Positions 12,363-52,582 of a stretch of 64,000 nt of DNA are shown piece by piece. The stretch covers positions 434,001 through 498,000 of the forward strand of contig SOPS01000001.1 in the NCBI GenBank assembly GCA_005239175.1. The letters run 5' to 3'. The notes beneath the pieces were generated by a model. That model was not told where the DNA came from. It searched no databases and saw only the letters and a list, made by a program, of their open reading frames with translations. The DNA comes from a halophilic archaeon SHRA6 (GTDB lineage: Archaea > Halobacteriota > Halobacteria > Halobacteriales > Haloferacaceae). Made by a program: the position numbers and the translations under genes. Position 1 is the first letter of the stretch. Every line of letters starts with the position of its first letter.

Positions 12363-12492
12363 ATACGTACCGTTGGGCGGGTCAGTTATATCAATTGTTG
12401 TGTAATGGATCGAGTGGTGTCGCTGGTGGTGGGAGATGACCGAGTGGGAGGGTAGTGCTTGCGGACAGCTCGAGTGTGATCACTGTGTTGGA

Positions 12493-12650
12493 CAGCGATC
12501 GAACCGTTTGTCGGCAATCGATTCGTTGCCAGCGATCGAACCGTTTGTCGGCAATCGATTCGTTGCCAGCGATCGAACCGTTTGTCGGCAATCGATTCGT
12601 TGCCAGCGATCGAACCGTTCGCCAGCGATCGAACCGTTCGCCAGCGATCG
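12493..12650. repeat. 37-bp tandem repeat array (3 full units, 2 half units)
   Basis: Three identical 37-bp units start at 12493, 12530 and 12567. Two 19-bp derivatives start at 12604 and 12623, and a partial copy starts at 12642. Each unit begins CAGCGATCGAACCGTT and contains CGATCG and ATCGAT palindromes. The array fills the intergenic space between divergent moxR and the DUF4330 gene, so it could carry regulator sites; there is no spacer structure. Confidence 0.9.
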
Positions 12651-12723
12651 ATTGTGGTGTGGCTGGTGCGAAGCGTCAGGGAAATTGAAAGCTTTTAGAC
12701 TGCCGCCCATCACCTACGTGGTA

Positions 12724-20877: not shown

Positions 20878-22274
20878 CAGTACCTCACAAAGCATCCTCG
20901 GCTAGCTGTTTCTGAAGCCTGAGTTCTGTGGCGGAGCGGTTCCACTGGTGGTCTCGACGAGAGGATCTTGGACGAACCAACGGAGAGCTGTCGCTGTCGG
21001 CGGCGGCTGCCGCCGACGCGACAGCGTCGCCACTCTCGCTGGAGGCTGTCTGGGCGGTGATTACCGGGTGAACCGGTTGTCCGGTGGCCGGTTCGCGGGG
21101 ACGGCCCGACGCACCGCGAGGGCCGTCCACGCTGCCCGTCGAATCATGTTGATGAACTCCTTGAACGACCACTGCCAGAGGCGACGCCCGCCTCGGCGGG
21201 GCGTCGCCACGTACTCCCAGTGCAGATACCGCCAGACGTTCTGTAACAGCAAGCTCACCACGACGTACAGCAACCGTACGACCGGATTTTGTGTCGAGGT
21301 CGCCGCAATACTTTGTTCGGAGAGTCGATAGCTCGCCTCGATACCGAAGCGTTTCGCGTAGTGGTATCGAGCGTCTCGTGGTGAGTCGATGAACGGCGCG
21401 TCAGCGGCGTAGCCGTGACGCGCTACGCCATGTTCGTCGTACCGTCCGTTCTGGTATGTAAAGTCGATGTAGACGGGAAACTCGACGGTCCAGCTGTGAC
21501 CGTCGAGTTTCGCCGTCAGGCTGTGCTGAATCACCCGACTCCAGCCTTCTGAGAGTTCTTGCTTGATCGTCTGTCCCCAGCGGACGATCGGCATGACGTA
21601 GGCGTGGTTGTGCGCCTGAAGCAGCGTCAAACACTTGCTATCGTAGAATTCGCGGTCAAGATAGACGGCCTTGACCTCGAGGTTAAGACCGTCAAGGATA
21701 CCGAGAAACTCTGCGAGGACACTGCTGGCGGTGTCGCCGTCGGTCAGACGGCGCACCGCCAGCGTGTAGCGTTTGTTCTTCACACGCGCGTAGAGTGTCG
21801 CGTAGGCGTGGAACGCGGTGGTTCCACGCTTCGCTTGGGAGTGATAGAGACCGTCGGTGTCGTTTTCGTCTCCATAGTAGGGCCGCAGGTGGAGGTCAGA
21901 AACGACCTCCACCTGCTCGGGAAGGACGTCAAGAACGTCCTTCTGGAGAAGCGTGTTTCCAACTTGTTCGAGCGTCTCTAGGTCGAACTTGGTGCGGAGA
22001 TGGTAGAGAACCGAGTTTTTGTGCGGTGCATCTTCGCTTCTCTCACAGAGCGTTGAGACCGAGGTCCCGTCGGCGCAAGCGCCGACGAGGACCTCGTAGA
22101 TGTCTTTAGCATCGAGTTTAGCGTTTTCAGCGAGTGCGAGAGTAACTTCCTCGTCAAGAGTGTTGACGAGGAAGTTAAGCAGGTGGTCCTCGTGGATTTC
22201 ATCGTCTGCTTGCTGGGTTTTGAACACACCTTCTGCAAGCAGACGTCTCAACTAACCGGCTTTGTGATGTACTG
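20878..22274 (-). mobile_element. ISH3-family element nested in the ISH8-type left end
   Basis: The ends are CAGTACCTCACAAAGC at 20878 and its near complement GCTTTGTGATGTACTG ending at 22274, flanked by the perfect 5-bp duplication GTTCT (20873-20877 and 22275-22279). The duplicated bases belong to the inverted repeat of the host element, so this insertion came later and hit an IS terminus. Length 1397 bp. Confidence 0.88.
21061..22251 (-). CDS. ISH3-family transposase
   Basis: A 396-residue DDE-type transposase, full length and uninterrupted. It has an N-terminal helical part (HEDHLLNFLVNTLDEEV), a catalytic core with LADRE-like AVYLDREFYDSKCL, and a C-terminal YAKRFGIEASYRLSEQS segment carrying the last acidic residue. 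It matches in detail the decayed relative at 44.5-45.9 kb. It occupies nearly all of the nested element 20878-22274, whose perfect target duplication suggests recent activity. Confidence 0.88.
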   Translation of the reverse strand: MRRLLAEGVFKTQQADDEIHEDHLLNFLVNTLDEEVTLALAENAKLDAKDIYEVLVGACADGTSVSTLCERSEDAPHKNSVLYHLRTKFDLETLEQVGNTLLQKDVLDVLPEQVEVVSDLHLRPYYGDENDTDGLYHSQAKRGTTAFHAYATLYARVKNKRYTLAVRRLTDGDTASSVLAEFLGILDGLNLEVKAVYLDREFYDSKCLTLLQAHNHAYVMPIVRWGQTIKQELSEGWSRVIQHSLTAKLDGHSWTVEFPVYIDFTYQNGRYDEHGVARHGYAADAPFIDSPRDARYHYAKRFGIEASYRLSEQSIAATSTQNPVVRLLYVVVSLLLQNVWRYLHWEYVATPRRGGRRLWQWSFKEFINMIRRAAWTALAVRRAVPANRPPDNRFTR

Positions 22275-22346
22275 GTTCTAGTTTAGCAGAGTCTCATCTG
22301 ATCAGACATCGTTGTAACTACCTATCAGAGAAACCCGGTGGAGAGT

Positions 22347-23690
22347 ATGAGTTACACACCACCGGATTCAGTAGTTGTGAATCGGATACAAAGAGCGTTT
22401 CCCTCTGATGAGTTGCGCGAACGCGTTCGCGCAACAAATCTCGTTGAGCGTCAGCGAAAGTTAAACATTGTTGCGCTATTCTACACTCTCGCGTTTGGTT
22501 TTTCTGCCGGGTCAGACCGCACTCTACAGGCATTTCTTGAACGGTACGTCGAGATGGCTGACTGTGACAAACTCTCCTACGCATCGTTTCACGACTGGTT
22601 CGAACCAGGTTTTGTTGCACTCCTTCGAGAGATTCTCGATGATGCTATCGAGAATCTCGATACCGGACGAAGAGACCTCAACGGTCGTCTCGAACGCTTT
22701 CGAGACGTCCTTATCGCTGACTCAACCATCGTTTCATTGTATCAAGACGCCGCTGATGTCTACGCAGCAACTGGTGACGATCAAGCTGAGTTGAAACTCC
22801 ATCTCACCGAATCCCTCTCTACGGGCCTCCCAACACGATACCAAACAACCAGCGGGAAAACTCATGACCGGAGTCAGCTACCCACCGGCGAGTGGGTAGC
22901 TGACGCCCTCATCCTTCTCGATTTAGGGTTCTACGATTTCTGGTTGTTCGACCGCATCGATCAGAATGGCGGCTGGTTCGTCTCTCGTGTCAAAGACAAC
23001 GCGAACTTCGAAATCGTTGAAGAACTTCGGACGTGGCGGGGTAACAGCATTCCGCTAGAGGGTAAGTCGCTGCAGGCCGTCCTCGACGACCTGCACCGAC
23101 AAGAGATCGACGTACGTATCACCCTCTCATTCGACCGCAAACGAGGGTCGAGCGCAAGCACGACCCGGACATTCCGATTAGTCGGCCTCCGGAACGCCGA
23201 ATCCGAAGAGTACCACCTCTATCTAACGAATCTTCAGAGAGATGACTACCGCGCGCCCGATATCGCACAGCTCTATCGGGCGCGCTGGGAAGTAGAACTG
23301 TTGTTCAAGGAGCTAAAATTGCGGTTCGGCTTGGACGAGATCAATACGACCGACGCTTACATCATTGAAGCACTGATCATCATGGCAGCGATCTCATTGA
23401 TGATGAGCCGAGTTATCGTAGACGAGCTACGGGAACTCGAAGCACAACAGCGAAAGACGACTGCCGCCGCTGACGCCGACGAGTCGGCGTCGCGGCTCCC
23501 CCGTCGTCGATGTTCGCTAGCCGTTGAACGGCATGCTCATCTCATTCAGCTGTATCTAATGCTTGAGTTAGGCTACGAACTGCCGGATTTGGATGAGTTG
23601 TTGCTGTGGGCGTCGCAAAATCCAAATCCCCACAGAGATCGGTTATGTAGACAGGTTGAATCGGGAGAGTTTGCCTTTGATCGCCACTAA
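22347..23690 (+). CDS. IS4-family ISH8-type transposase
   Basis: A 447-residue transposase. The first catalytic Asp is in DVLIADSTIVSLY, the second in ALILLDLGFYDFWLF, and the IS4 YREK box is YRARWEVELLFKELK. The N-terminus is FHDWFEPGF-like, as in the ISH8 group. ATG 22347 is used; GTG 22338 is possible. The gene is intact, but the element's left terminal repeat has been split by the ISH3 insertion, which should impair its mobility. Confidence 0.9.
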   Translation: MSYTPPDSVVVNRIQRAFPSDELRERVRATNLVERQRKLNIVALFYTLAFGFSAGSDRTLQAFLERYVEMADCDKLSYASFHDWFEPGFVALLREILDDAIENLDTGRRDLNGRLERFRDVLIADSTIVSLYQDAADVYAATGDDQAELKLHLTESLSTGLPTRYQTTSGKTHDRSQLPTGEWVADALILLDLGFYDFWLFDRIDQNGGWFVSRVKDNANFEIVEELRTWRGNSIPLEGKSLQAVLDDLHRQEIDVRITLSFDRKRGSSASTTRTFRLVGLRNAESEEYHLYLTNLQRDDYRAPDIAQLYRARWEVELLFKELKLRFGLDEINTTDAYIIEALIIMAAISLMMSRVIVDELRELEAQQRKTTAAADADESASRLPRRRCSLAVERHAHLIQLYLMLELGYELPDLDELLLWASQNPNPHRDRLCRQVESGEFAFDRH

Positions 23691-25344: not shown

Positions 25345-27150
25345 ATGAGTGCTGATGATACTGAGTCGGTCTCCAGACGCGAAAAGATCGACGCCCTCAT
25401 AGATGTCGCCCAGTACAATCCTCGGTTCACGGTTGGAATTGTGCTGCTCGGGATTGTCGCAGCGATTCTTGAGGGCGTTGGATTAAGTTTTATTTTACCG
25501 ATCATCGAACTGGTCGAGACGAGTGATCCCGCGAGTGAAGCAGACGGACTAATGGGCGTGTTTGTCTCCGCGTATGAGCTCGTGGGAGTACCGCTCACAC
25601 TCGGGACGGCCGTGTTAGGCGTGTCGCTGGTAATGGTCGTCCGCTATACGTCGAGTTTTGGTGTTGGGTGGCTGCGTGAGGTTTTGCGGACGCACTATAT
25701 CAGAAACTTGCAAGACCGTGCGTTTCGAAATGCCCTTGACGCGAGAGTGGCCTACTACGATGAAAAAGGATCTGACGATATTTTGAATGCGATCGTGACT
25801 CAGACGTATTACGCTGGGCGAGTGATCCAACGTGCGATTCAGCTACTCGAACAGACATTCATTGCAGGCGTGTACTTCCTCATCGCATTGATTATATCAC
25901 CGTCTCTAACGCTCTTTACGGCCGTCGTACTAGGTGGTTTTACTGTCTTTTTCCGTCGCGTGCTTGAATCCGGCTACGACATTGGCGATCGAGTTGCCGA
26001 GGCAAACGAACAGCGTCAACAGGCCGCCCAAGCTGGTACCCAAGGAATCCGAGATATTCGTATTTTCGGAGTCGCAGATGAATTGTATGAGGACTTCCAA
26101 CAAGCGATCGACAAATACACACGGGCACGGATCCTCCAGCGGCGTAACAGCACTGCAATAGGTAATTTCTATAACCTCGTTGTCGCTGTTTCCGTCTTTG
26201 TGTTGATTTATTTGGCGCTGGCATTTGCTGACTTGTCACTTGGTGCACTGGGTGTATTCTTATTCGCAATGTTTCGACTGGGACCGCGCGTGAGTAATCT
26301 AAATAGTATGTTTTATCAGATCGAAAACGATCTGCCCCACCTCGTCCGTACACTCAAATTCATCGCCGAACTTGAGAGCCAAGAAGAGCCAAATGAATCG
26401 AAACAGAGAGTGCCTGGAGAAATCACACAGATTGAGTTTGATACAGTGGAGTTCGCTTACAGCGGTGAGGAGCAAGTCCTTCGCGGGATCGACTTCGAGG
26501 TTGAGAAAGGCGAGTTCGTCGCATTCGTTGGACAGTCAGGAGCCGGAAAGTCGACGATCGTCTCACTGTTAGCTCGGATGTACGAAGTCGACGAAGGCGA
26601 GATTCGAGCAAACGGAATTCCAATTCAAGAGATGAATATTGGAGAATGGCGCGATCGGCTCTCTGTCGTGCGACAGAGTCCCTTCATTTTCAACGACACG
26701 CTACGCTACAATCTGACGATCGGAAACCGAGACGTATCGGACCGCGAGTTGGATCGAGTGTGTGAGATCGCGAAGGTGGACGAGTTCATGACTGACCTTC
26801 CGGAAGGCTACGAGACGATGTTGGGTGACGAAGGAGTACGCCTGTCCGGGGGACAAAAACAACGCGTGGCGCTGGCTCGAGCGCTTATTGAGGACGCTGA
26901 CTTGTTGATCCTCGACGAGGCGACGAGCGATCTGGACTCGAATCTCGAAAAGCAGGTTCAACAGGCAATTGAGGAGATGGATCGAGACTACGCAATTATT
27001 ACGATTGCACACCGGCTGTCAACAGTAAAGAACGCCGATCGGATATATACAGTAGAGGACGGCCAAGTCACGGAGACGGGACAACATAGTGAGCTAGTAA
27101 AAGAGGGTGGCAAATACGCCGAGTTATACGGAATTCAAGCAAGTCAGTAA
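25345..27150 (+). CDS. ABC exporter, fused permease and ATPase (lipid-linked glycan flippase-like)
   Basis: A 601-residue half-transporter: six membrane helices in residues 25-320, then an ATPase domain. Walker A is GQSGAGKST (about 395-403), the signature is RLSGGQKQRVALARAL, Walker B is LLILDEATSDLD, and the H-loop is IITIAHRL. Domain order and length match MsbA/PglK-type exporters that work as homodimers. Its place at the head of a glycan gene cluster makes lipid-linked oligosaccharide flipping the best guess; drug or peptide export cannot be excluded from sequence alone. Codon composition is intermediate between the GC-rich left and AT-rich right. Confidence 0.88.
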   Translation: MSADDTESVSRREKIDALIDVAQYNPRFTVGIVLLGIVAAILEGVGLSFILPIIELVETSDPASEADGLMGVFVSAYELVGVPLTLGTAVLGVSLVMVVRYTSSFGVGWLREVLRTHYIRNLQDRAFRNALDARVAYYDEKGSDDILNAIVTQTYYAGRVIQRAIQLLEQTFIAGVYFLIALIISPSLTLFTAVVLGGFTVFFRRVLESGYDIGDRVAEANEQRQQAAQAGTQGIRDIRIFGVADELYEDFQQAIDKYTRARILQRRNSTAIGNFYNLVVAVSVFVLIYLALAFADLSLGALGVFLFAMFRLGPRVSNLNSMFYQIENDLPHLVRTLKFIAELESQEEPNESKQRVPGEITQIEFDTVEFAYSGEEQVLRGIDFEVEKGEFVAFVGQSGAGKSTIVSLLARMYEVDEGEIRANGIPIQEMNIGEWRDRLSVVRQSPFIFNDTLRYNLTIGNRDVSDRELDRVCEIAKVDEFMTDLPEGYETMLGDEGVRLSGGQKQRVALARALIEDADLLILDEATSDLDSNLEKQVQQAIEEMDRDYAIITIAHRLSTVKNADRIYTVEDGQVTETGQHSELVKEGGKYAELYGIQASQ

Positions 27151-27664: not shown

Positions 27665-28387
27665 ATGGAAAGGGGAATTTTGTATATCGCTAGTGGGTCA
27701 AGATATATTGAGGACGCAATTGAGTCTTCAATAAGTATAAAAGCACATACAAATCTTCCCGTCACACTGGTTGCTGACAGATCTGTTGAAGATCCTCACT
27801 TTGATAGAGTAATTGAGTCAGATGACTTCCTGTATCATTATGGTGATAGTGTGTTACAAATCCCAAGATTACCCTACAAAAATACGATATTGCTTGATAC
27901 TGATACAATCGTATCAGACAACTTTGACGAGTTGTTTTCATTGACGAGCAACTTTGATGTCGCTGCGGCTACCATCGCCGAGTCCAAATTCGGTATCGGC
28001 GACAAAGTACCGGGTTCCCTCCCGGAATTTAATACAGGTGTAGTTCTGTTTAACAAGAATGAGAGAACCTCACGCTTTATTAGCAAGTGGAAGAGCCTTT
28101 ATAAAGAGTACCTTGACAAGAACGTCCGTATGAATCAACCAGCATTCCGTGAGGCTGTCTTTCAGAGTCCTGCTCGGTTTATTACTATACCAACAGAATA
28201 CAACTGTCGTGCGAACTTCGGCGGATATCTAACTGAGAAGGTCAAAATACTACACGGCTCATTTGACGATCCAGAACAGATTCTACGTGACCTAAATGAA
28301 TATATCGCACCGCGGGTGTATTTCAATCAAGATAGTGGACTGACTGTCGAGAAAGTGAATACTACAAACAACCGGTTTGGTAGGTGA
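27665..28387 (+). CDS. glycosyltransferase-like protein with DxD motif (GT-A fold)
   Basis: A 240-residue soluble protein. A central hydrophobic strand ending in TILLDTDTIV (residues about 76-86) gives a DxD metal/nucleotide motif. The later FNTGVVLFNK and NQPAFREAVF segments are typical of GT8-like or nucleotide-diphospho-sugar transferases, where they position acceptor and donor. No membrane helix is present. The gene is AT-rich and lacks CGATCG, unlike the 5' part of the window. Donor and acceptor sugars cannot be inferred. Confidence 0.7.
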   Translation: MERGILYIASGSRYIEDAIESSISIKAHTNLPVTLVADRSVEDPHFDRVIESDDFLYHYGDSVLQIPRLPYKNTILLDTDTIVSDNFDELFSLTSNFDVAAATIAESKFGIGDKVPGSLPEFNTGVVLFNKNERTSRFISKWKSLYKEYLDKNVRMNQPAFREAVFQSPARFITIPTEYNCRANFGGYLTEKVKILHGSFDDPEQILRDLNEYIAPRVYFNQDSGLTVEKVNTTNNRFGR

Positions 28388-28714: not shown

Positions 28715-29407
28715 ATGGCTGAGATCTTGGCAGTCATTCCTGCAATGGTAGACGATGAATTATCAAACAGGAATTTAAGAGAAATAAAGGGGAGGTCGCT
28801 AGTTGAGATAGCGATTCGACAGGCTACGAACTCTGAACTAATAACCAATATCGTCCTTAACAGCAACAGTGAGCGCATTCTTGCAGAGGCAGAAGGGTAC
28901 GACGTCATCACGTACGATCGGCCCGATCGGTTCGCTCAGAGAGACCGGTTCATGGAGATGGACCGACTGTTGATGTGGCAAATTGAACAATTAAAAGCCG
29001 ATAACCACGATATCGACGTTGTCGTTCTGTTGTACCCGACTTCTCCGTTGCGAACTATTGAAATAATTGACAAAACCATCGAAAAAGTCGTCGACGAAGA
29101 TTACGATTCAGCACTAACGCTGTACGAAGACACTCGATATCTATGGAAAAAAGATGGGGTAAAAGTTACTCCGGTGAACTATGATCCTCAGAAACGAGCG
29201 CCGAGCCAACTTGAAGACTGGAATCAGTGGGTCGAAAACAAAGCCGTCTATGCTGTTGAAGAAACCACCCTGCTTCAGATGGGGTCGCGCTTGGGCAACA
29301 ACATTGGCTCAGTTGAAATGCCACAGTATCGGTCATTCGATATTCGGACACAAGTCGACTTCGAATTAGTCCGATTTATCGCCGAGGTCGACGGGGTAAG
29401 TTGGTAA
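28715..29407 (+). CDS. CMP-sugar synthetase-like cytidylyltransferase with degenerate nucleotide loop
   Basis: A 230-residue member of the acylneuraminate/KDO cytidylyltransferase family, strongly similar over its whole length to the protein at 32344-33036 (shared VVLLYPTxPLR, DSALTLYEDxRYLW, WNQWVENKAVY). The canonical N-terminal loop ARGGSxGxxxKN is replaced by IPAMVDDELSNRNL, losing the Arg, Gly-Ser and Lys that hold CTP. It may be catalytically inactive, have altered specificity, or pair with its paralogue. Family members form CMP-activated sialic or ulosonic acids. It precedes an epimerase by 33 bases, suggesting co-transcription. Confidence 0.75.
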   Translation: MAEILAVIPAMVDDELSNRNLREIKGRSLVEIAIRQATNSELITNIVLNSNSERILAEAEGYDVITYDRPDRFAQRDRFMEMDRLLMWQIEQLKADNHDIDVVVLLYPTSPLRTIEIIDKTIEKVVDEDYDSALTLYEDTRYLWKKDGVKVTPVNYDPQKRAPSQLEDWNQWVENKAVYAVEETTLLQMGSRLGNNIGSVEMPQYRSFDIRTQVDFELVRFIAEVDGVSW

Positions 29408-29440
29408 TCACACCCGAGGAGCACAGAAATTAACACTTAT

Positions 29441-30289
29441 ATGACAGTCTTAATTACCGGCGCACACGGCACGGTCGGAACCGCCCTTACACAACATTGT
29501 CACTTCGAGTACGACCTCCTTGACAAACAGGAAGCCACGGAGAAACTCGCTGACGGCACCGCACACCCTCACTTCGAATCAGATCAAATAACTGTAGATA
29601 TATCAAATAAAGAAGAATTGACGCATGCATTCAATGGTTATGATGCTGTTGTCCATCTCGCTGGCAGTTCCGAGGTGAGTTCCACATTTGAACAAGTGTA
29701 CCGGAACAACATCAGAGGCATTTATAACTGCTTAGAAGCAGCTAAGCATAGCGATGTCGACAGTTTTATTTTCGCATCATCAAATCACGTCGTCGGTCAG
29801 TATGAAAAGGAACACGCTCCAAACCTATACGAACAGGATTATGACCTCACTGTTGACCACACTTCACCTGTTCGACCTGATTCACATTACGGTTCCTCGA
29901 AGGTCGCGGGGGAAGCTTGGGGAAGACAATATGCGGATAACTATGGGATACAATTTTATGCTCTTCGCATCGGCTCGGTTAGACCTCCCCGATGGGATCA
30001 TCCGTATGGCGATGCAGAACGGGGTGTTGAACAAGGAAGATGGGACCGTGAGAGCGAAGACTACTATGAACAGGTCAACAGATTAAAATGTACCTGGCAA
30101 TCGCGCCGTGACTTTGCACACATGGTCGAGCGGTGTCTCGCCGATGAAGATGTGACGTTTGACATCTTTTATGGGGTGAGTGACAATGAACGGTCTTGGC
30201 TTGATATTGACCACGCTCGCAAGCGTATCGGATATGATCCTCAGGATAGTTCCGAGGAATACGGTTCGCCGAAGCCGTTCAGGACGTAA
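29441..30289 (+). CDS. NAD(P)-dependent sugar epimerase/dehydrogenase (extended SDR)
   Basis: A 282-residue SDR with a Rossmann loop TGAHGTVG (residues 6-13), a VVHLAGSSEV strand, a Ser-rich ASSNHVVG segment, and the catalytic pair in HYGSSKVAGE (YxxxK). It resembles the NAD-dependent uronate dehydrogenase/epimerase branch more than GalE, which I judge only from overall length and motifs. It sits between the two CMP-sugar-synthetase-like genes, so a role in making the sugar acid precursor is plausible. The stop faces the convergent aldolase gene with an 11-base gap. Confidence 0.82.
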   Translation: MTVLITGAHGTVGTALTQHCHFEYDLLDKQEATEKLADGTAHPHFESDQITVDISNKEELTHAFNGYDAVVHLAGSSEVSSTFEQVYRNNIRGIYNCLEAAKHSDVDSFIFASSNHVVGQYEKEHAPNLYEQDYDLTVDHTSPVRPDSHYGSSKVAGEAWGRQYADNYGIQFYALRIGSVRPPRWDHPYGDAERGVEQGRWDRESEDYYEQVNRLKCTWQSRRDFAHMVERCLADEDVTFDIFYGVSDNERSWLDIDHARKRIGYDPQDSSEEYGSPKPFRT

Positions 30290-30300
30290 CCGTATCTAAT

Positions 30301-31101
30301 TCACTCAGATTTGATGTCCTCCGTCTCGTTCAGTTCGCCGACACGGTTTTTTAATGTCGATCGGAGAATTTCAACATCGCCTCCAATGTCGATTAGCGTG
30401 TACCCGTTGTTCATGGCCTTCCGTGCACTCTCAACATTCGAGACGCCACGCCCCAGCGGAACGTCATTTTCTGCACATACTCGCTCTATCTTCTCAATTG
30501 CGTCCTGTACCTCCGGCTTCTCGTACTCTTGGGGATGTCCCAACGAGACGGATAGGTCACCGGCCCCTATTTTGACAAACCCGAGCTCAGGGATAGACAC
30601 AATCTCTTGGACATTCTCAACCGCGGACCTTGTCTCTAACATAATGCCGACGAGAATTGATTCGTCCTCACGCTCTGTGTAACCATCCGGACGGACACCC
30701 CAATCGTTCGCTGGCCCAGTCCCAAACCCCCGTTTTCCTGGTTCCCCATCGTATCTGTATCGTGATGCACAGACAACGCGCTCTACTTCTTTTGCTGTCT
30801 CAATTCTAGGAACAATAATTGTACGAATACCTGCATCTATAACTTTTCGGACCATCGACGGTTCAGCAGCAGGAAGACGGACAACGAGACCAATTCCAGC
30901 ACTCTCCGCCATCATTTGCACATTCTCAAGACTAGTGCTATCATACGGTGAAAACCCTGCGTGCTCCAGATCAAGGTATCCGTACTCTACATCCACTTGT
31001 CCCAGAACTTGGAGCAATGTTGTGGAAAAACTTCGGAGTCGGACGCCAAATACTGGCTCGTTGCGCTCCAATCTACCTCGTACGATGTTCTCAGTTCTCA
31101 T
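30301..31101 (-). CDS. HpcH/HpaI-family aldolase
   Basis: A 266-residue TIM-barrel aldolase. Visible features are FGVRLRSFS near the N-terminus, YGYLDLEHAGFSPYD, the metal-ligand region VPRIETAKEV, FGTGPANDWG, MLETRSAVEN and KIGAGDLSVSLGHP. This family reversibly joins or splits pyruvate and an aldehyde to give 2-keto-3-deoxy acids. ATG 31101 is used; the upstream TTG at 31119 is less likely. Its place between two cytidylyltransferases suggests a biosynthetic use, forming a ulosonic acid for CMP activation, instead of aromatic or sugar catabolism. That use is inference. Confidence 0.85.
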   Translation of the reverse strand: MRTENIVRGRLERNEPVFGVRLRSFSTTLLQVLGQVDVEYGYLDLEHAGFSPYDSTSLENVQMMAESAGIGLVVRLPAAEPSMVRKVIDAGIRTIIVPRIETAKEVERVVCASRYRYDGEPGKRGFGTGPANDWGVRPDGYTEREDESILVGIMLETRSAVENVQEIVSIPELGFVKIGAGDLSVSLGHPQEYEKPEVQDAIEKIERVCAENDVPLGRGVSNVESARKAMNNGYTLIDIGGDVEILRSTLKNRVGELNETEDIKSE

Positions 31102-31172
31102 ATTGATGTAATCCAGCAACTATCTCATTAACCCTGTGTCAATGTGGTTAATTTCTCTCAACGACGCACCGC

Positions 31173-32237
31173 TTACTTACTAATTGGATCCACGTCATAT
31201 TTTTTTGCTAGTGCATCGAATTCTTCAAGTTCGTGTTTTGGAACCGGGATACCTCTTTGTTCACGCTCACCTTTGGCTTCCTTTTCGGGATCACCAGGAA
31301 CGTAATTCGGCGTTTCCTCGTTCTGTCTCGGTTCGTTTCGAACCTCCTCCGCAAGTTGCTGTAGGCGCCGTTCGAACTCCTCGACTTCGACAAACGCATC
31401 GATGCGGAAAGCCGCGTAGTAATGACCGAGATTCCGTCGATTGGATATATCCTCTCCGTACATTTCGGATACCTCCCTTCCAACAGACATTCCCGAAAGC
31501 AGCCCATTGAAGATGTCCACTACCATCGAGAGTCCAAATCCTTTGTACCCTCCCAGCGGCAACAACTGAACGGCCTCCTCCGGATTGCGCGTTGGTATGC
31601 CACGTTCGTTAGCGGCCACGTCACGCGGTAGTTTCGCCCCGGCGTCCTGTTGTTTCCGAACCTCGTTAAATGTGATTGCTGAAGTGGCGGCATCGTAACA
31701 GAACGGCTCTTCATCGGACATCGGGGCCGCGACACAAATCGGGTTGCTTCCGAAGAACGGGCGAACTCCATTCGGCGGGCGAGTATTCGCCGACGTTTGT
31801 GTAGTAGCTACGCCGATCATCCCTTCTTTTGCTGCTTCAAGTCCGAAGTAGGCCATCATACCGTTGTGGGTAGAGTTACTGACGCTCACATGGCCTACTC
31901 CAGTGGCTTCCGCCAATTCGATTGCATAGTCCATCGCACGGATACCCGCTGCAATTCCATACGTATGATCTGCGTCGAACTGGCCGACCGCCGGTGCTTT
32001 TTGATCGAAACTGAACTCCGGTTCGGGGTTAATCCGGCCAGACTCAAGTTCTTTGATGTAGTGTGGCAATAGTCGAATCCCGTGTGAGTCGACGCCTCGC
32101 ATCGAAGCCATTACCAACCCTTCTGCAGTGTCTTCTGCAACTTCTTCCTTGACACCAGCATTAATCAGCACGTCTTGTACGAATTGTTCGACCGCCTCGC
32201 ACGACACCCGTAATCCGTCGGTGGAACTGTTGCTCAT
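31173..32237 (-). CDS. malate/L-lactate/sulfolactate dehydrogenase family oxidoreductase (Ldh_2)
   Basis: A 354-residue member of the Ldh_2 family. Characteristic parts are ASMRGVDSHGIRLLPHYI, the HVSVSNSTHNGMMAYF region with the catalytic His, RPFFGSNPICVAAP, and the LGGYKGFGLSMVVDIF loop. These NAD(P) enzymes oxidise or reduce 2-hydroxy and 2-keto acids. It is read divergently from the second cytidylyltransferase and in the same direction as the aldolase 71 bases downstream, forming a likely two-gene operon. Reduction or supply of a 2-keto acid for the aldolase is a plausible but unproven link. Confidence 0.88.
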   Translation of the reverse strand: MSNSSTDGLRVSCEAVEQFVQDVLINAGVKEEVAEDTAEGLVMASMRGVDSHGIRLLPHYIKELESGRINPEPEFSFDQKAPAVGQFDADHTYGIAAGIRAMDYAIELAEATGVGHVSVSNSTHNGMMAYFGLEAAKEGMIGVATTQTSANTRPPNGVRPFFGSNPICVAAPMSDEEPFCYDAATSAITFNEVRKQQDAGAKLPRDVAANERGIPTRNPEEAVQLLPLGGYKGFGLSMVVDIFNGLLSGMSVGREVSEMYGEDISNRRNLGHYYAAFRIDAFVEVEEFERRLQQLAEEVRNEPRQNEETPNYVPGDPEKEAKGEREQRGIPVPKHELEEFDALAKKYDVDPISK

Positions 32238-32343
32238 AATGATCTAATGTAGCGATGTACAACGATATTAGCCTGGTGGTTTGCTGTGCACATCACAATC
32301 GAGAGTAATAAGAATGATTATGCTTGATGTTTTGAGTGTATCT

Positions 32344-33036
32344 GTGAACGTTTACGCTATCATCCCTGCACGAGGGGGCTCAGAAGGAATCCCAGGAAAG
32401 AACTTAAAAAAAATCGACGGTGAACCGCTTGTCGGGATTGCCGCAAGCCAGGCGGTTCAGGCTGAAGAGATCGACCACGCGGTCGTCAATAGTGATGATC
32501 CAGATATTCGGGAGGCTGCCAAAGAACACGACGTCCAAGTAATGGATCGTCCGAAAAAGTACGCCCAAGGCGATATGATGATGGGGGTAGACAAATTCCT
32601 CAACTGGCAGGTTTCCGAACTGGAGGAGCAAGGCCACGAAATTGACATTGTGGTGTTATTGTACCCGACTGGGCCCTTGCGGCCAGTAGACAAGATAGAT
32701 GAGACAGTGAGAAAGGTCTCTGAGCAAGAGTTCGATTCGGCACTCACTTTGTATGAGGACGATCGATATCTCTGGGAAACAGAGGAAGAAAAAACCAAGC
32801 CGATAAATTATCATCCTGCGAGTCGGGGGCCACGCCAACTTGAAGAGTGGAATCAGTGGGTAGAGAATAAAGCCGTCTACGTGATGACGCGTGATTTACT
32901 AATAGAAACGGGATGTCGGCTTGGAGGTGATATCGGCTATGTTGAAATGTCCGAACTGCGGTCAGTAGACATCGATACTCCTACCGATCTGAAATTGGCA
33001 AAACAAATAGTGGAAATAGAGGGCAAGTCTTGGTAA
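32344..33036 (+). CDS. CMP-sugar synthetase (acylneuraminate cytidylyltransferase family)
   Basis: A 230-residue protein with the canonical CTP-binding start AIIPARGGSEGIPGKN (residues 5-20). VVLLYPTGPLRPVD and the DSALTLYEDDRYLW region also occur in its paralogue at 28715. GTG 32344 is chosen because it places the motif as in the family and yields exactly the paralogue's length; ATGs at 32314 and 32320 are alternatives. The enzyme should transfer CMP to the anomeric hydroxyl of a 2-keto sugar acid. No NeuB-like condensing synthase is present; the aldolase upstream may replace it. Confidence 0.85.
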   Translation: MNVYAIIPARGGSEGIPGKNLKKIDGEPLVGIAASQAVQAEEIDHAVVNSDDPDIREAAKEHDVQVMDRPKKYAQGDMMMGVDKFLNWQVSELEEQGHEIDIVVLLYPTGPLRPVDKIDETVRKVSEQEFDSALTLYEDDRYLWETEEEKTKPINYHPASRGPRQLEEWNQWVENKAVYVMTRDLLIETGCRLGGDIGYVEMSELRSVDIDTPTDLKLAKQIVEIEGKSW

Positions 33037-33381
33037 AGTTATCAAATAAAATATTGTGATTATTTGAGTGTGAATAGGTCAAATGAATCGCTATACTGAG
33101 GCGACCTTTAGTGAGGACTCACATCGATCGAGGCGTCGCTCTGGAACAGATGACTGTGACGTTGAGAATTCCAGCAGTAACGAAGCGAGCGGACGCTCTC
33201 ACATTTCTATCGAATCACTGGAACCCGATTTCGTATGGAGATTCATTAGGACTAGTTCCGCGGAAAACTCTACAGAAAGCCTGGCGACGAAGCACTCAAG
33301 GAAGCCAAAGAATGTGGTATTCTGAGATTAAGAAAGAACTTACGAAGAGTTTTAATTGTATTTTTATGAGTTGTCTTCTTT
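33037..33381 (+). pseudogene. degenerate ORF region, no firm gene
   Basis: Two overlapping frames (33083-33325 and 33111-33446) each look partly protein-like (TKRADALTFLSNHWNPISY; then LATKHSRKPKNVVF), as if one short gene had suffered a frameshift. I cannot identify the family. This could be the tail of a lost glycan gene between the cytidylyltransferase and the convergent DUF115-like gene. Confidence 0.3.
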
Positions 33382-34287
33382 CTATACGCCAACAATATCC
33401 TCTAAATTCACTCTCGGGTGGATTTCAAGTTCCCCTCCAATTGTAGCATTAAATATCTCCACATTCTTATCTAAACAGATGGTTCGCGCTGAAATATGGG
33501 CTTTTTTTTGTTCGATGTTAATATGACGTTGGTCTTTTGGTTGTTTCCAATAATCCTCGATGAAATGATCTTTATCGTCGGGGAAAAAATTTCTAATCTT
33601 AGAATTGGCAGGTGATCGTAGCAACTGATATGCAACGCCATTCAAAAAAGACTTTACCAAGAATTTATCCTCCCAACTATCTTTTAAAAATTCAATTTCT
33701 GCTCCAAGCCGACTATTTGGGTCGCCATAGTCTAAGGGATCGATTCCTGTGTCAAATATCATATGTGGGTCATGTTTCCCATACCCAAGATCACATCCAA
33801 TCAAGTAAATTTTACTAAAGCCCATATATGCAAGTAATTGAAAAATAATATATGTTGAATGATAAGCATATAGTTGTTTTCTTGGATTATCTGACCAGAA
33901 CTGATAATAATCTTCGAGCGATAACTCTTGGAACTTTTCAAAAGAGGTTTTATGAAATTTGTTTTTTTTGCCTAACAATGATTTAATACTAATATAACAA
34001 ATATTTGATGCAGTTCCAAACTTACGTTCGAATTTTTTATCTAAGAAGCACTTGGCACCCATGCGAATATTTTCTTTTACTTCGGACTCCAAGCCAGTAC
34101 GCTCTTGCCTGTATAAATAAAAGTCAGGTCGCCAATCGGTTGTTTGATAAATTGGATTGATATTGTTCAGGGCAAATGTATACTCGTCTTCAAGCCAGTT
34201 GAGGGGCGTGTTAGCTAAGCTTGGACCATTTCCTATTAAAAAAACCTGTTCACTCTTGTATCTGTCTTGGAGTGATCCAACGTCCAT
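33382..34287 (-). CDS. MptE/DUF115-like protein with sialyltransferase-like NGPSL motif
   Basis: A 301-residue AT-rich protein. The N-terminal FLIGNGPSLANTPL (residues about 16-29) and the later GFSKIYLIGCDLGYGK are the two signatures shared by DUF115/MptE-like proteins and, more distantly, GT42 sialyltransferases and motility-associated glycosylation factors that use CMP-activated nonulosonates. The C-terminal end (ISARTICLDKNVEIFNATIGGELEI) is unusual. Position beside two CMP-sugar-synthetase-like genes favours a glycosyl-transfer role over pterin metabolism, but this is inference. Composition suggests horizontal acquisition. Confidence 0.62.
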   Translation of the reverse strand: MDVGSLQDRYKSEQVFLIGNGPSLANTPLNWLEDEYTFALNNINPIYQTTDWRPDFYLYRQERTGLESEVKENIRMGAKCFLDKKFERKFGTASNICYISIKSLLGKKNKFHKTSFEKFQELSLEDYYQFWSDNPRKQLYAYHSTYIIFQLLAYMGFSKIYLIGCDLGYGKHDPHMIFDTGIDPLDYGDPNSRLGAEIEFLKDSWEDKFLVKSFLNGVAYQLLRSPANSKIRNFFPDDKDHFIEDYWKQPKDQRHINIEQKKAHISARTICLDKNVEIFNATIGGELEIHPRVNLEDIVGV

Positions 34288-34666: not shown

Positions 34667-35737
34667 ATACTTAACGCCGAAAGTTTTGAGATACAGAAGC
34701 ACATCGTTTGAGTATGTCCAAGGACGGGAACAAGATTCCCGATCTTTCAGTTGAGCGCGTCCGCGAGCAGCTCGCGGACGAGCGTGATCCGAAAGCAATC
34801 AAACGGCTCACTGCTGCACGCGAATATCTCGCTGGGCTATCTCCAGATAAGATCGAGGAAAAATACGGATGGCCTCGTCAGACAGTGTACAACTGGTTGG
34901 ATCGCTTCGAAGAGCGCGACTTTGAAGACGCGCTCTACGACGACAAACGTCCAGGAAGACCGCCTGAGCTCTCTGACGAACAGTTCCAACAATTCGCTGA
35001 AACACTCAACCAATCACCCGAAGAAGCTGGATACGATGAGCCTGCTTGGTCGAGTATACTAGCTCAACAACACCTCATAACTGAGTTTGATGTTGCACAT
35101 TCCCGGCATCACGTTCAGCGACTAATGAAAGAGGCCGAGGTTTCCTGGAAGAAACCTCGGCCAGAACCAGCCTCGGCTGACGAGGAAGATCTTGAGCGGT
35201 ACGACGACGAGCTCAAAAAAAGTCGGGAGACGGGATGAAGACAGGCTTGTCATAACGATTGATCAGTTCAGGAAATCGGTTGGAGCTGATCTCAGATATG
35301 CGTGGTTTCCGATTGACGAGAGGCCGACAGTGAACGTGTCGGCCTCTCGTGATGGAATCAATTTCTTGGGCGGTCTCACCGAGAACGGCGAGACCATGTT
35401 TTTGGAATGCGCTGGTTCGTTCAACAAGGAAACGACGGTTCGATTTCTCCAATCACTTCAGGCAAGATTCGGAGAGAAGCTGCTCGTGGTTCTCGACAAG
35501 GGTTCCTATTTCACAGCGAAGAAAGTCAAAGAATTTGCCGAGAAATCGAAGCTAAAGCTTCTATATCTCCCGACTGGGATGGCTAAGCTAAACCCAACGG
35601 AAGAGTGTTGGCGGCAACTCAGATCAGTTATTGGTAATCAGTACTTTGGAGAAATTGACGAACTTCGAAGTGAGATCCGCTCAGCGATGAACGAGATTAA
35701 TCCGCCCGGAGTGTATCAGTATCTCTGTCGGTGAGTA
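34667..35737 (+). mobile_element. IS630-family element inserted in an IS110 element
   Basis: Flanking DNA rejoins perfectly as one IS110 transposase reading frame (SIYYMLSRNELYDPP) if 34667-35737 is removed with one TA, the usual IS630 target. The element is about 1.07 kb and carries a frameshifted transposase. Exact termini are uncertain by a few bases because TATATA repeats blur the left edge. Confidence 0.72.
34714..35734 (+). pseudogene. IS630-family transposase, split by +1 shift at an A7 tract
   Basis: The first part (34714-35238) has a helix-turn-helix (IEEKYGWPRQTVYNWLDRF) and the linker KRPGRPPELS. The second frame (to 35734) has the DDE core: ITIDQFRK, VVLDKGSYF and LPTGMAKLNPTEECWRQL. 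The frames join at CTCAAAAAAAGTC (A7 at 35215-35221) by skipping one base. This is either a one-base insertion or a programmed slip producing a 340-residue fusion. The second Asp is followed by Lys-Gly instead of the usual Asn-Ala/Gly. Confidence 0.75.
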
Positions 35738-36225
35738 TAGTAGATTGAGACTAATATCTTCCGTGCGGTAGCAACGATTGCGACCTGATGATTCTTCCGT
35801 CGTTTGAGTCGTGTGTAGAAATTTCCGAAGTAGTCATCACACCGGACAGCTGTATGGGCAGCCTGGACGAGGGCCCAGCGCAACTGCGCTGAGCCCTCTT
35901 TGCTAATACTCCCATGGATCTCCTTCTCACCGGATTGGTGAACGACTGGATCAAGACCGGCATAGCTGACTAAGGATTTATCTGAATCAAATCGCTCAAT
36001 CTCACCAACTTCTGCAACGATAACCGCTGCAGTGAATTGTCCGACACCAGGAATCGTCAGCAGCCGCTGGGCTGCTGGCGATTCCAAGACGTGTCGCTCA
36101 ATTTCATCTTCAAGAGCAGCAATCTGCGTATCGTATTCATCAATGACTGAGAGATGAGCTTCGATGATTGTTCGATCTGCGGTACTAAGCGAGAGTTCCT
36201 CTAATGAGTATGAATACTTTTGCAA
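35738..36225 (-). pseudogene. IS110-family transposase, C-terminal fragment
   Basis: The minus frame encodes the Transposase_20 domain: RLLTIPGVGQFTAAVIVAEVG, SYAGLDPVVHQSG, GSAQLRWALVQAAHTAV, then KILVSIYY, where an IS630 insertion interrupts it. The N-terminal DEDD domain is missing; the segment to the right is an unrelated IS630 relic. Its 3' end continues beyond the insertion at 34617-34666. Confidence 0.82.
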
Positions 36226-36246
36226 GTAGAGCTCACTTTTGAGGTA

Positions 36247-37338
36247 ATGGGCTCACGTCGAACCGAGATCAGGCGTCACCTGCCGGAAGAAGAGATCGAC
36301 GAGATGCTGAGGGGAGCTGAAGACGATCACCATCTTCGCCGAGTCGGCTTCGTCAAGAATCTCTATTAGGGCGATACGATTCCTGAGGCTGCTGATCGGG
36401 AAGGTCGATCAGCAGCAACAGGGACACGCTGGGCAGAGGGCTGGAATCAAGGAGGCTTCGAAGAACTGATGCCGAGTTTCGGGGGCGGTCGGCCCCCGAA
36501 ACTCGACGAGGATGAGCAAGACGAGTTGGTTGAGATGCTTCGTGACGGACAACCATGGAAATCACAGGAGATTCAGCATCTTCTCCAAGAGGAATTCGGC
36601 GTTTCATACAGCCCGAATTATTTGGGTATCTTTCTCCGGGAACTTGGTCTTTCGTACGCGAAACCACGGCCAAAGCGTCCACATCGGCCAGAGAACCCTG
36701 ATGAAATCCTCGAAGAGCGCGTCGACGACGCGCTCGACGAGGACGACCAGCCACACAACAAACGTGACGGAGAAGACGAAGAAGGGTGGATTGTTGAGGA
36801 CGATATCTGTACTGATGGCGGTACCGTCCTCGGATTTTTTGATGCATCGAAGCCACAGCCGTACGATAATTCACGGCGTGTCTGGTACGTAGATGATCCA
36901 CACATTGAGCGGGAGTTAGTCAAGACACACGATTCGGCGGTCGGATTCTACGCTCTCAACGGTGAGAGTCTGGTGACGTTCACCGAAGACGAAAAGAAAG
37001 AGCGAATTTGTGGGGTCTTAGAGAAGATACGCGAGCAGAATCCCGGCAAGCGGATTCTGCTCGTCTTGGACAAGCACGGTGCACATAGATGTGAATACAC
37101 GCGGAAGCGCGCGCATGAACTCGGGATCGACCTGATTTTCATTCCGTCAGGCTCACCGCACCTGAATCCAATCGAACAAGTCTAGGACTACCTCAAATGG
37201 ACGATGGCACCGATCGTCGTCGAGAATGAAGGAGAATTCAAAGAGCTCGTTCAGGAAACCTTCGAGAAAATAACGAAACGCATCAGCTTCGCACAGAAGT
37301 GGTGTGAAAAGTTCCTTGACTTTCAAAAGTTATCGTAA
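36247..37338 (+). pseudogene. IS630-family transposase pseudogene with two in-frame stops
   Basis: This aligns throughout with the intact transposase at 52757-53860 (ELMPSFGGGRPPKLDEDEQ, RILLVLDKHGAHRCEYTRKR, FIPSGSPHLNPIEQV). TAG at 36367-36369 interrupts the N-terminal part (VKNLY*GDT), and TAG at 37183-37185 interrupts just after the last catalytic Glu (IEQV*DYLKW). The final stop is TAA 37336-37338. A nonfunctional relic about 363 codons long. Confidence 0.85.
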
Positions 37339-44482: not shown

Positions 44483-45871
44483 CAGTACCTCACAAAGCAT
44501 CGCCAGTTAGCCTGACCTAAGCCACCTGTTCTGCCGTGATGAGTCGTCGGTAGTGGTTGAACAACGCTGATCGATGGCGGAGCTGTCGCTGTCGGCGGCG
44601 GTCAGCCGCCGACGCGACAGTGTTGCCACTTGCAAAAACACTTGCTTGGTCAGTGACTACCGGTCGACTTGGTCGTCAGGTGGCCGGTTCGCGGGGACGG
44701 CCCGACGCACCGCGAGGGCCGTCCACGCGGCCCGCCGAACCATATTGACGAACTCCTTGTACGGCCACCACCAGAGGCGACGCCCGCCTCGGCAGGGCGT
44801 CACCACGTATTCGTAGTGCAGATACCGCCACGCATTCTGCAAGAGGAAACTCACCACGACGTACAGCAGTCTCACCGTTGTGGCTCGTGTTGTTGCCGTC
44901 GCTATCGCTTGCTCGGGCAAGCGATAGCTCGACTCGATACCGAAGCGTTTCGAGTAGTGGTATCGAGCGTCGCGTGGAGTCTCAATGAACGGTGCGTCAG
45001 CGGCGTAGCCGTGACGCGCCACGCCGTGGTCGTCGTACTTCCCGTTCAGGTACGTACAGTCGATATAGACGGGAAACTCGACGGTCCAGCTGTGACCGTC
45101 GAGTTTCCCTGTCAGGTCGTGTTGAATGACGCGACTCCATCCTTCCGAGAGTTCCTGCTGAATCGCCTCACCTCACTGGATGATCGGGACAACGTAGGCG
45201 TAGTTGTGCGCCTGTAACAGCGTGAGACACTTGCTGTCGTAGAATCTGCGATCGAAGTAAACGGCCTTGACGTCAGTGTCAAGGCCGTCGAGGATACCGA
45301 GGAACTCAGCGAGGGCGCTGCTGGCGGTGTCGCCGTATTCGACACGGGCGCACCGCCAGCGTGTAGCGTTTGTTCCGCACGCGTGCGTAGAGCTTGGTGT
45401 AGGCGTGGAACGCAGTGGTTCCACGTTTGGCTTCCGAGTGATAGAGGTGGTCGGTGTCGTCTTCGTCACCGTAGTAGGGCCGCAGGTGGAGGTCTGCGCA
45501 GACCTCCACCTGCTCGGGGAGGAGTTCGATAATGTCTCGGCGAAGAAGCGTGTTAGCGACTCGTTCGAGCCGTTCCGGCTCGAACTCCGTCCGGAGGTGG
45601 TAGAGAATCGTGTTCGCCGATGGCGAGTCTTCGCTGGAGTTACACAGTGTCGAGATCGAGGTCCCGTCGGCGGTTGCGCCGATGAGGACCTCGTAGATGT
45701 CCTCTGCATCGATTTCAGCGTTGTTGGCGAGGTTCAGAGAAACTTCCTCGTCAAGTCGGTTGACGAGGAAGTTAAGAATCTGGTCTTCGTGGATTTCATT
45801 GTCTGCTTGCTGCTTGGAGTGCACGTCCTCAGCAAGCAGACCTTCTGACTAACCGGCTTTGTAAAGTACTG
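44483..45871 (-). mobile_element. degenerate ISH3-family element
   Basis: The ends CAGTACCTCACAAAGCATCG (44483) and GGCTTTGTAAAGTACTG (to 45871) match those of the intact ISH3 element at 20.9 kb. Flanking 5-mers (AGATC, AGCTT) are not identical, so no clear target duplication remains. About 1389 bp. Confidence 0.8.
44657..45824 (-). pseudogene. ISH3-family transposase pseudogene
   Basis: The parts match the intact transposase at 21061-22251. The N-terminal frame 45306-45824 (HEDQILNFLVNRLDEEVS, LHLRPYYGDEDDTDHLYHSE) shifts near 45350 into a frame with GILDGLDTDVKAVYFDRRFY, then a stop (about 45172-45176) separates it from the C-terminal KRFGIESSYRLPEQ part. The second catalytic DRE is DRR here, another sign of decay. 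Confidence 0.82.
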
Positions 45872-48858: not shown

Positions 48859-49927
48859 GGCGGTGGTGCAGAACTGTTCTCATAGCGTGATGGTTGGGCT
48901 AGCGACATCGTTTCCTCGATGGTGATTAGCGAGTGCGACGGCCAATCGCAGGCAAAGAGCGATGAAGACGTGTGCTTTGACGCGTCCTCGGCCTCGGAAC
49001 CGGCGGGGTCCCGAGGCCGAGATCCTTGCAGACGCCAATCGCTGTTTCAACCCGTGAGCGTTCTGCATACGTTTCGTCGAACTGGTGTTGCCAGAGACGA
49101 ACCGTGTCGCTGTGCTCTTTGATGCGCTCTTCAACGCGGTATTCTATGTCTGGCGGATCGTCTGTATTCCGTGGATTGTACGGCGATATCGGCACGACTG
49201 ACTGCTCCAGCAGCCAGTCGTGCCACCCCAGCATATCGAACTCTGAATCACCGAGGAACCAGCGTGGAGTGTCAACAGCGAGCGCGTCAAGCGTGACGCG
49301 CATCGCCGTCTCCTCATCGACCTTCTTCGCTGGAGTGAACGCTGCTGCGACCGGAATGTTGTGTGCCGCAGTGACGATACAGCAACCGTAGCCGTAGTAG
49401 TAGTCGTCCTCTGCGTGATCGTAGTTCCAGTCGGCGTCCTCGTCACGCTGATCAACCGGGATATCTGTCCCATCGATCCGGAAGAGCTTGCCGAGCGGCA
49501 CCTGCTCGGCAAGCTCGTGGACTAACTCGATGAAGACGTCTTCGGCGACGGGTTCGAAATCAGTGATGAACCGCGAAAGTGTCCGCCGGGACGGCGGACT
49601 CTCGAAGCCACACTGTCGCCAGACATCCTCGTTGTGGAGCTCCCGCGCTATCGGACGAGGGCCGTAGATGTCGCGGTAGAAGCAGTGAAGGACGCCTTTC
49701 AGGAGTTCTGGTGGTTCGTGAACCCGTGTTCGCCCCCTCGGATCGGGGGCGAACACGGGATAGTCAGTGAGGAACGACAAATCGAGGTGTTCGAACAGTG
49801 CCGTTGTCTCTGTCTCCAGTGCTTTGAAAACCTGTTCGACCGTATCGTTACTTGGTAGGACGGACTTGCTGCTGGACACATCAATTTCGTCCTACCGCTC
49901 CCTTGTGAAGGCTTCTGCACCACCGCC
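48859..49927 (-). mobile_element. IS element with 15-bp inverted repeats and 10-bp target duplication
   Basis: The terminal repeat GGCGGTGGTGCAGAA (48859-48873) is matched by its exact complement at 49913-49927. AGCACCTAAT is duplicated at 48849-48858 and 49928-49937. The element is 1069 bp and encodes one transposase on the minus strand. It landed 6 bases before the TATA box of the beta-helix gene. Confidence 0.9.
48880..49879 (-). pseudogene. DDE transposase with 3' frameshift
   Basis: A roughly 330-residue IS4/IS5-superfamily transposase: GKLFRIDGTDIPVDQRDED (first Asp), FLGDSEFDMLGWHDWL (second Asp), and ERSRVETAIGVCKDLG (Glu). The frame shifts near 49015, after GLGTP; in the correct frame it continues RFRGRGRVKAHVFIALCL and ends at 48880. 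The initiation codon appears to be GTG 49879. The exact IS family is uncertain. With perfect termini but a broken gene it may still move in trans. Confidence 0.75.
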
Positions 49928-52057: not shown

Positions 52058-52330
52058 TAAGATTGAACGAGACGCGCCAGCAGACCGAGATTACACAGTA
52101 AACAGCGGGAGTTTGGAGATGTCGATGGCATCGGATACATACGACGTGATTGTGATGAAACGCCGGATGCCGTCATTTTGATAGCCAAACAACGCTACCG
52201 AAACAGTGATGGCGTGGAAAATGCGGTTTTGCGGTATGGAAGGGGAGAAGAGCATCTATTTCCCTGCTTATCCACATGGCCTGTAACTAAAGTATAAAAA
52301 TATATAATACTTTGAAAATTAGCTCTGTGT

Positions 52331-52582
52331 ATGCGTCCCAAACCACTGTCAGAAATGACAAAAAATGATGTTAACAACATAGTTATATACACTTCTGACA
52401 GTTTTCGACATGACTATATTCCACCTTCTTTGACCGAGAAGGGATTTTTAGGTAAAGCGATCGCCCCCAGCACCTTCACAGCCTCAAGCATCCCGTCGAT
52501 ATTTTCTGGGCTGTATCCCGAATCGCATCGTGTCTGGGGGTTTGATTCTGGATTGAAAGGTAATTCAGTTTTTACCCATACG
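52331..52582 (+). pseudogene. sulfatase gene copy 2, truncated after 84 codons
   Basis: The N-terminus KPLSEMTKNDVNNIVIYTSD and GKAIAPSTFTASSIPSIFSG matches the sulfatase at 19457-20635 almost residue for residue, up to GNSVFTHT. There it is cut at about 52580 by the end of another mobile element. It keeps the first metal site and nucleophile region but lacks the second metal site, so it is inactive. Confidence 0.88.

Follow-up and report, generated by a model that had tools for sequence, protein, structure and literature searches.

A stretch of 64,000 nucleotides from the halophilic archaeon SHRA6 (Haloferacaceae; assembly GCA_005239175.1, contig SOPS01000001.1, positions 434,001–498,000 of the forward strand), here called the window, contains at positions 28,715–34,287 a cassette in which two paralogous cytidine monophosphate (CMP)-sugar synthetase genes, CTP-A and CTP-B, flank genes for a short-chain dehydrogenase/reductase (SDR), an HpcH/HpaI aldolase and an Ldh_2-family dehydrogenase, followed by a gene for a protein with an NGPSL motif. 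The textbook CMP-activated ulosonic acids, that is sialic, legionaminic and pseudaminic acid and 3-deoxy-D-manno-octulosonic acid (Kdo), all come from phosphoenolpyruvate (PEP)-dependent synthases of the NeuB or KdsA family. We give roughly even odds to the reading that this cassette is a module for the biosynthesis and transfer of a CMP-activated ulosonic acid that dispenses with a PEP-dependent synthase and relies on aldolase-led steps instead. The genes of the cassette and its flank are as follows, with coordinates counted from the first letter of the window and Pfam scores given against the family cutoff:

25345..27150, plus strand: MsbA/PglK-like ATP-binding cassette (ABC) exporter (PF00005/PF00664)
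27665..28387, plus strand: GT8-like glycosyltransferase (PF01501, at cutoff)
28715..29407, plus strand: CTP-A, PseF/NeuA-like CMP-sugar synthetase paralogue of the CTP_transf_3 family (PF02348, 28.8 bits, cutoff 22.6)
29441..30289, plus strand: SDR dehydrogenase of the uronate dehydrogenase/Azf type (PF01370)
30301..31119, minus strand, likely start ATG at 31101: HpcH/HpaI class II pyruvate aldolase (PF03328, 93.5 bits, cutoff 25)
31173..32237, minus strand: Ldh_2-family 2-hydroxyacid dehydrogenase (PF02615, 347 bits, cutoff 38.8)
32281..33036, plus strand, likely start ATG at 32314: CTP-B, PseF/NeuA-like CMP-ulosonate synthetase of the CTP_transf_3 family (PF02348, 69.1 bits, cutoff 22.6)
33382..34287, minus strand: NGPSL protein, MptE-like, predicted GT42/Maf-type CMP-ulosonate glycosyltransferase (PF01973, 38.2 bits, cutoff 34.6)

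A preliminary description of this DNA had named the last six of these genes, and Pfam bears out their coordinates and families; it had missed the GT8 gene as a member of the conserved set. The surroundings are as expected of a glycan island: the G+C content is 43–51% across 26–34 kb as against 57–65% in the first 16 kb of the window, and several open reading frames (ORFs) with transposase-like translations surround the cassette. Judged by eye, such ORFs, some seemingly fragmentary, lie at window positions 21061–23690, 34708–37185, 44669–45848, 48926–49879, 51165–53860 and 54663–55643. The ABC exporter is likely the lipid-linked glycan flippase of the island.

Relatives of CTP-B were found in 40 of 293 Halobacteriales genomes, and a close pair of synthetases only in the genome of the window and in one other from a different genus, Haloferax larsenii. 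There, CTP-A, GT8, NGPSL, CTP-B, Ldh_2, HpcH and SDR all lie inside 7 kb, and the encoded proteins are 62.8, 55, 37, 70, 67, 57 and 62% identical to those of the window, respectively. The block of CTP-B, Ldh_2, HpcH and SDR has the same order and orientation in both cassettes, with CTP-B divergent from Ldh_2, HpcH following Ldh_2, and HpcH convergent with the SDR; outside this block, CTP-A, GT8 and NGPSL are placed differently in the two. Conservation of the gene neighbourhood had been proposed as a check in the preliminary description, and since a second genus carries the same genes, with an identical four-gene block, the arrangement is not a matter of chance. No third cassette was present among 170 Haloferacaceae genomes. 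Further members of the cassette's Ldh_2 clade were not found at E ≤ 1e-100 among 393 genomes of the window's phylum (a sample that did not include H. larsenii), nor close relatives of the synthetase or of Ldh_2 in viral, plasmid and phage collections. A scan of ~85,000 prokaryote genomes added one, that of a Sulfurospirillum, in which the Ldh_2 gene overlaps the synthetase gene and this in turn overlaps a gene for a Gfo/Idh oxidoreductase. The bacterial Ldh_2 is 51% identical to that of the window; 298 Campylobacterota genomes gave no other Ldh_2 match. A canonical pseudaminic acid operon with its own synthetase lies apart from these genes in the same bacterium, 16–20 kb away; the Ldh_2-linked synthetase is therefore not part of the pseudaminic acid pathway.

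The preliminary description stated that no NeuB-type PEP-dependent synthase is present. This is true of the cassette and extends to the entire assembly of H. larsenii, which is 99% complete and has no NeuB (PF03102) anywhere; the genome of the window has a single NeuB, on another contig. Neither genome gave a match to the KdsA/DAHP synthase family (PF00793), for which a haloarchaeal genome with a Kdo operon (G076) served as positive control, and the window itself contains no KdsA, KdsC, KdsD or KdsB. At the other haloarchaeal synthetases, NeuB is found within ~10 kb in 25 of 29 cases, and likewise at the three next-closest synthetases, giving 28 of 32; cassette-type Ldh_2 or HpcH occurs at none of the haloarchaeal synthetase loci whose neighbourhoods were compared. 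The haloarchaeal CMP-sugar synthetase loci with no NeuB within ~10 kb are L056, L057, L106 and L122.

One alternative is that a NeuB encoded elsewhere supplies a nonulosonic acid for the cassette to tailor or use, with the oxidoreductases and the aldolase altering this sugar either before its activation or afterwards. The NeuB of the window's genome, which belongs to a separate NeuC-NeuA-NeuB cluster, could be such a source, and a NeuB locus in Halorussus has an SDR and a Gfo/Idh gene after its synthetase. However, the NeuC-NeuA-NeuB cluster carries its own synthetase, and H. larsenii has the full cassette in a nearly complete assembly devoid of NeuB- and KdsA-family genes; we consider this alternative improbable. 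We are highly confident that in H. larsenii the sugar acid is made without NeuB or KdsA. In Halorubrum sp. PV6, the legionaminic acid pathway (LegB/C/H/G/I/F) forms the sugar by means of LegI, a PEP-dependent NeuB homologue (PMC6137143). The cassette resembles it in being a haloarchaeal surface-glycan island with a CMP-ulosonate synthetase of the same superfamily and in that the product is expected to go onto a glycan, but it is devoid of a LegI/NeuB-type synthase, as is the genome of H. larsenii. In comparison with the CMP-Kdo pathway (KdsD, KdsA, KdsC, KdsB), the cassette has its synthetases together with SDR, HpcH and Ldh_2 in place of the synthesis module; a shared element is that the Kdo modules of G076 and of a second haloarchaeal genome, G039, adjoin a homologue of the cassette's NGPSL transferase.

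Homologues of the NGPSL protein were found in 5 of the 293 Halobacteriales genomes and, later, at a sixth locus. All six loci hold CMP-ulosonate genes in the form of a Kdo module (KdsD, KdsA and a KdsC-KdsB fusion in L097 of G039 and L098 of G076, KdsA in L097 being assigned by similarity), KdsB alone (a KdsB-like gene in L099 of G009), a NeuB module (NeuB and a NeuA-like gene in L145), or the cassette. The alignment of these homologues matches CstII in profile comparison (E 5.6e-8), and the NGPSL protein matches the PHROG alpha-2,3-sialyltransferase family (3.4e-5). A structural model with a predicted local distance difference test (pLDDT) score of 78 and a predicted template modelling score of 0.75 was obtained from an alignment that included viral-contig homologues (pLDDT 32 from two sequences alone). 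Its fold matches the Maf flagellin glycosyltransferase (5mu5, Z 14.0), MptE (Z 12.4) and CstI/CstII (Z 12.1), and the best Foldseek match is CstII. Because both the profile and the modelled fold match CstII/Maf, the GNGPSL motif is a true homology signal, and by predicted fold and family profile the protein is a relative of the GT42/Maf-type sialyltransferases, albeit one that is only 13–16% identical to them. It also has PF01973 and its fold match in common with the pterin diphosphokinase MptE, but the gene setting speaks for a role in glycan synthesis over one as a pterin kinase. His264 is invariant among the homologues and may correspond to the catalytic base His188 of CstII; the profile alignment to CstII stops short of it. 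There is thus good reason to predict that the NGPSL protein transfers the CMP-activated sugar acid, as the preliminary description had proposed from the motif: the homology in profile and fold and the co-location with CMP-ulosonate genes at 6 of 6 loci both favour it.

The exporter of the island shares 72% identity with its counterpart next to the Kdo genes of L098 and 71% with that of L145. A constant exporter and transferase combined with differing synthesis genes looks like a module swap. The exporter was considered as a specific marker of CMP-ulosonate loci, and this idea was weakened by its presence in 113 of 293 genomes, although it often lies near synthetases (in 22 of 40 genomes the distance to a CMP-sugar synthetase is below 20 kb). 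Being common in haloarchaeal glycan islands, the exporter therefore adds only moderate weight to the module swap. Kdo is usually regarded as a bacterial and plant sugar. The haloarchaeal Kdo operons beside the NGPSL transferase are located at 10890–13870 of L098 (KdsA 404 bits, cutoff 242; KdsD 262 bits, cutoff 204; KdsC-KdsB fusion) and at 5916–9088 of L097. In L097, two tandem NGPSL paralogues adjoin the Kdo genes (11869–13723), the second without the His of the YHS motif. At 9125–12784 of L099, the NGPSL transferase is accompanied by a KdsB-like synthetase, a glucose-dehydrogenase-like SDR and a D-2-hydroxyacid dehydrogenase with no KdsA, possibly another synthase-free CMP-ulosonate set.

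The two synthetases of the cassette belong to the family assigned to them in the preliminary description, but they are probably not two equivalent enzymes, since the active site of CTP-A is degenerate, a feature missed at that stage. In phylogenetic trees, CTP-A, CTP-B, their H. larsenii copies and the Sulfurospirillum protein form a distinct clade (support 100/100) in which the A/B duplication is archaeal (support 98/93), and the clade profile matches the CMP-N-acetylneuraminic acid synthetases 1qwj, 9t4z and 1eyr. CTP-B has an intact P-loop (ARGGSxGIPxKN) and DID metal site, with the equivalents of R12, K21, D209 and D211 kept (NeuA numbering here and below). In CTP-A of the window, neither the cytidine triphosphate (CTP) loop nor the DID site is intact, the changes being R12M, G14D, S15D, K21R and D211R; the H. 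larsenii copy has R12K, G14N, S15N, K21R and D209S. Of 34 other synthetases, 33 conserve the altered loop residues and all 34 conserve D211. Meningococcal NeuA is left with almost no activity by D209A or D211A, and every active site of that enzyme is completed by a residue of the partner subunit (PMC2901514). Saturation of synonymous sites precluded calculation of dN/dS, and codon-position identities were used in its place; for CTP-A these are 0.38 at third positions as against 0.73 and 0.77 at positions 1 and 2, and by this sequence measure CTP-A is under purifying selection. Its identity to CTP-B is 63–70% in segment 133–186 and just 34–47% in the loop segment. Judged by these residues, CTP-A is likely to be non-catalytic. 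As it has lost CTP- and metal-binding residues and yet remains under purifying selection, the simplest reading is that it is probably a non-catalytic partner subunit of CTP-B.

CTP-B is similar to PseF and NeuA in its P-loop and DID metal site, whereas the separate clade, scores below the PseF cutoff (TIGR03584, 205.7 bits; 76.1 for CTP-B and 49.9 for CTP-A) and the degenerate paralogue set the cassette synthetases apart. Members of the clade have a Tyr where NeuA has the catalytic Gln104. This Tyr, together with scores below the curated PseF and KdsB cutoffs, could be taken to indicate that CTP-A/CTP-B activate an acidic compound other than an ulosonic acid, e.g. a hydroxyacid, and that the NGPSL protein transfers that compound. 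However, the same Tyr is present in PseF, the synthetase of the canonical pseudaminic acid operon of Sulfurospirillum, and the NGPSL homologues serve Kdo and NeuB loci, and we regard this explanation as very improbable.

Among the three enzymes between the synthetases, the aldolase has 4mf4, RhmA, GarL and HpaI as its closest solved structures. Its His47, Arg75, Asp89, Glu156 and Asp182 align with His50, Arg75, Asp89, Glu153 and Asp179 of GarL, positions that have catalytic or metal-ligand roles in GarL/HpaI/RhmA; a Met replaces the Gln that precedes the Glu in GarL. The known HpaI/GarL/RhmA class II aldolases serve catabolism. The window aldolase shares the Pfam family HpcH_HpaI and the aligned catalytic positions with them, but scores below the cutoffs for their specific functions. 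In Ldh_2, the SHG and NSxH segments with the catalytic His are conserved in comparison with 1z2i. The SDR scores 201.5 bits against NCBIfam Azf (cutoff 400), and its closest solved relatives are the uronate dehydrogenases 6mfh, 3ay3 and 3rft, with which its SSNH, YxxxK and RxxxTW motifs align; the Arg that binds the substrate carboxylate in those enzymes is kept.

Aldolase, Ldh_2 and SDR might also be a captured set of sugar-acid catabolic genes that came to lie between the synthetases by chance in an island rich in mobile elements. Transposase-like ORFs are indeed common around the cassette, and haloarchaeal relatives of the aldolase and the dehydrogenase at ~35–43% identity lie in other settings, some plainly catabolic. 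The preliminary description had held that such co-occurrence with catabolic genes would speak against its proposal; it applies to some of these relatives and not to the cassette-specific Ldh_2 clade, which was found only beside these synthetases. Moreover, the two genera share the order and orientation of the four genes despite shuffling of the outer ones, the Ldh_2 and synthetase genes overlap in the bacterium, and the cassette lacks the dehydratase, kinase or transporter genes of a catabolic pathway. Capture by chance is accordingly a quite improbable explanation.

The conserved gene set, the lack of NeuB and KdsA in H. larsenii, and the homology and co-location of the NGPSL protein make a CMP-ulosonic acid formed by a NeuB/KdsA-free route well supported, and the product of the cassette is very likely a CMP-activated ulosonic acid. 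We envisage that the HpcH aldolase would add pyruvate or hydroxypyruvate to a sugar-derived aldehyde, giving a 2-keto acid, and that Ldh_2 and the uronate-dehydrogenase-like SDR would either prepare a precursor or adjust the acid's oxidation state. CTP-B, with its intact active site, would then couple the acid to CMP from CTP, paired with CTP-A as a non-catalytic subunit that still has the segment predicted to extend into the adjoining one. Finally, the GT42/Maf-like NGPSL protein may move the sugar acid onto a glycan, which the adjacent ABC exporter would probably flip.

The role of the aldolase is the least secure part of this scheme. Product, NeuB independence and the NGPSL protein as transferase, all put forward in the preliminary description, are supported by the analysis; the aldolase is a candidate maker of the carbon skeleton. 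The Sulfurospirillum version keeps Ldh_2 and synthetase without a cassette-type aldolase, which is thus not universal to the system. Formation of the skeleton by HpcH is plausible, with the balance about level. Ldh_2 rather than the aldolase may create the keto group. In such an oxidative route, the SDR (Gfo/Idh in Sulfurospirillum) would oxidise C1 of an aldose or uronate to the acid, Ldh_2 would convert the 2-hydroxyl into a keto group, and the resulting non-deoxy ulosonic or ulosaric acid would be activated by CTP-B, leaving the aldolase an accessory function, e.g. in precursor supply or recycling. Because a bacterial relative does without the aldolase, this route is the main rival and has to be taken seriously: Ldh_2 and synthetase are the pair conserved in every case, the single campylobacterotal Ldh_2 sits exactly beside this synthetase, the operon of the bacterium also has a Gfo/Idh gene, and enzymes of that family can oxidise C1 of sugars, and uronate dehydrogenases are the nearest solved relatives of the archaeal SDR. 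On the other hand, it leaves no clear role for HpcH, whose gene immediately follows that of Ldh_2 in each archaeal cassette, and the known members of the NeuA/PseF/KdsB synthetase superfamily act on 3-deoxy ulosonic acids. We consider the oxidative route rather unlikely.

Other points also count against aldolase-led synthesis of an ulosonic acid by the cassette. The window's genome does possess a NeuB, with a synthetase in its cluster. All five enzymes score far below the NCBIfam cutoffs for specific functions, and the substrates of all five are only predicted. The GT42-like transferase family serves NeuB and Kdo loci too, and so does not identify the sugar of the cassette. Complete cassettes number only two in a partial sampling of genomes, and in H. 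larsenii an ambiguous base and a duplication interrupt the NGPSL gene, probably through faulty assembly. The complete proposal, with the HpcH aldolase in place of a PEP-dependent synthase and activation by a heterodimer of an active synthetase and a conserved pseudo-enzyme subunit, is tentative and somewhat less likely than not. If true, it would be, as far as our searches show, the first example in a prokaryotic glycan of such sugars being made without NeuB or KdsA; the gene combination was not found in the full text of open papers, which is weak evidence of absence. It would also imply a transferase family that is exchangeable with Kdo and NeuB modules. A natural route without NeuB or KdsA would widen the chemistry of surface sugars, allowing shorter or non-deoxy ulosonic acids, and would provide a signature new to genome annotation. 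Also of glycobiological interest are the conserved pseudo-synthetase and the archaeal Kdo operons that adjoin members of this transferase family.

Outside the cassette, a group of genes on the minus strand at window positions 56400–60939 encodes a fusion of a nucleotidyltransferase with a PEP-synthase-like kinase of the PRK05849 type (937 bits, cutoff 501) as well as a nucleotidyltransferase and a protein resembling gamma-glutamyl-CDP-amidate hydrolase (126 bits, cutoff 250). This archaeal group resembles the capsule phosphoramidate pathway of Campylobacter.

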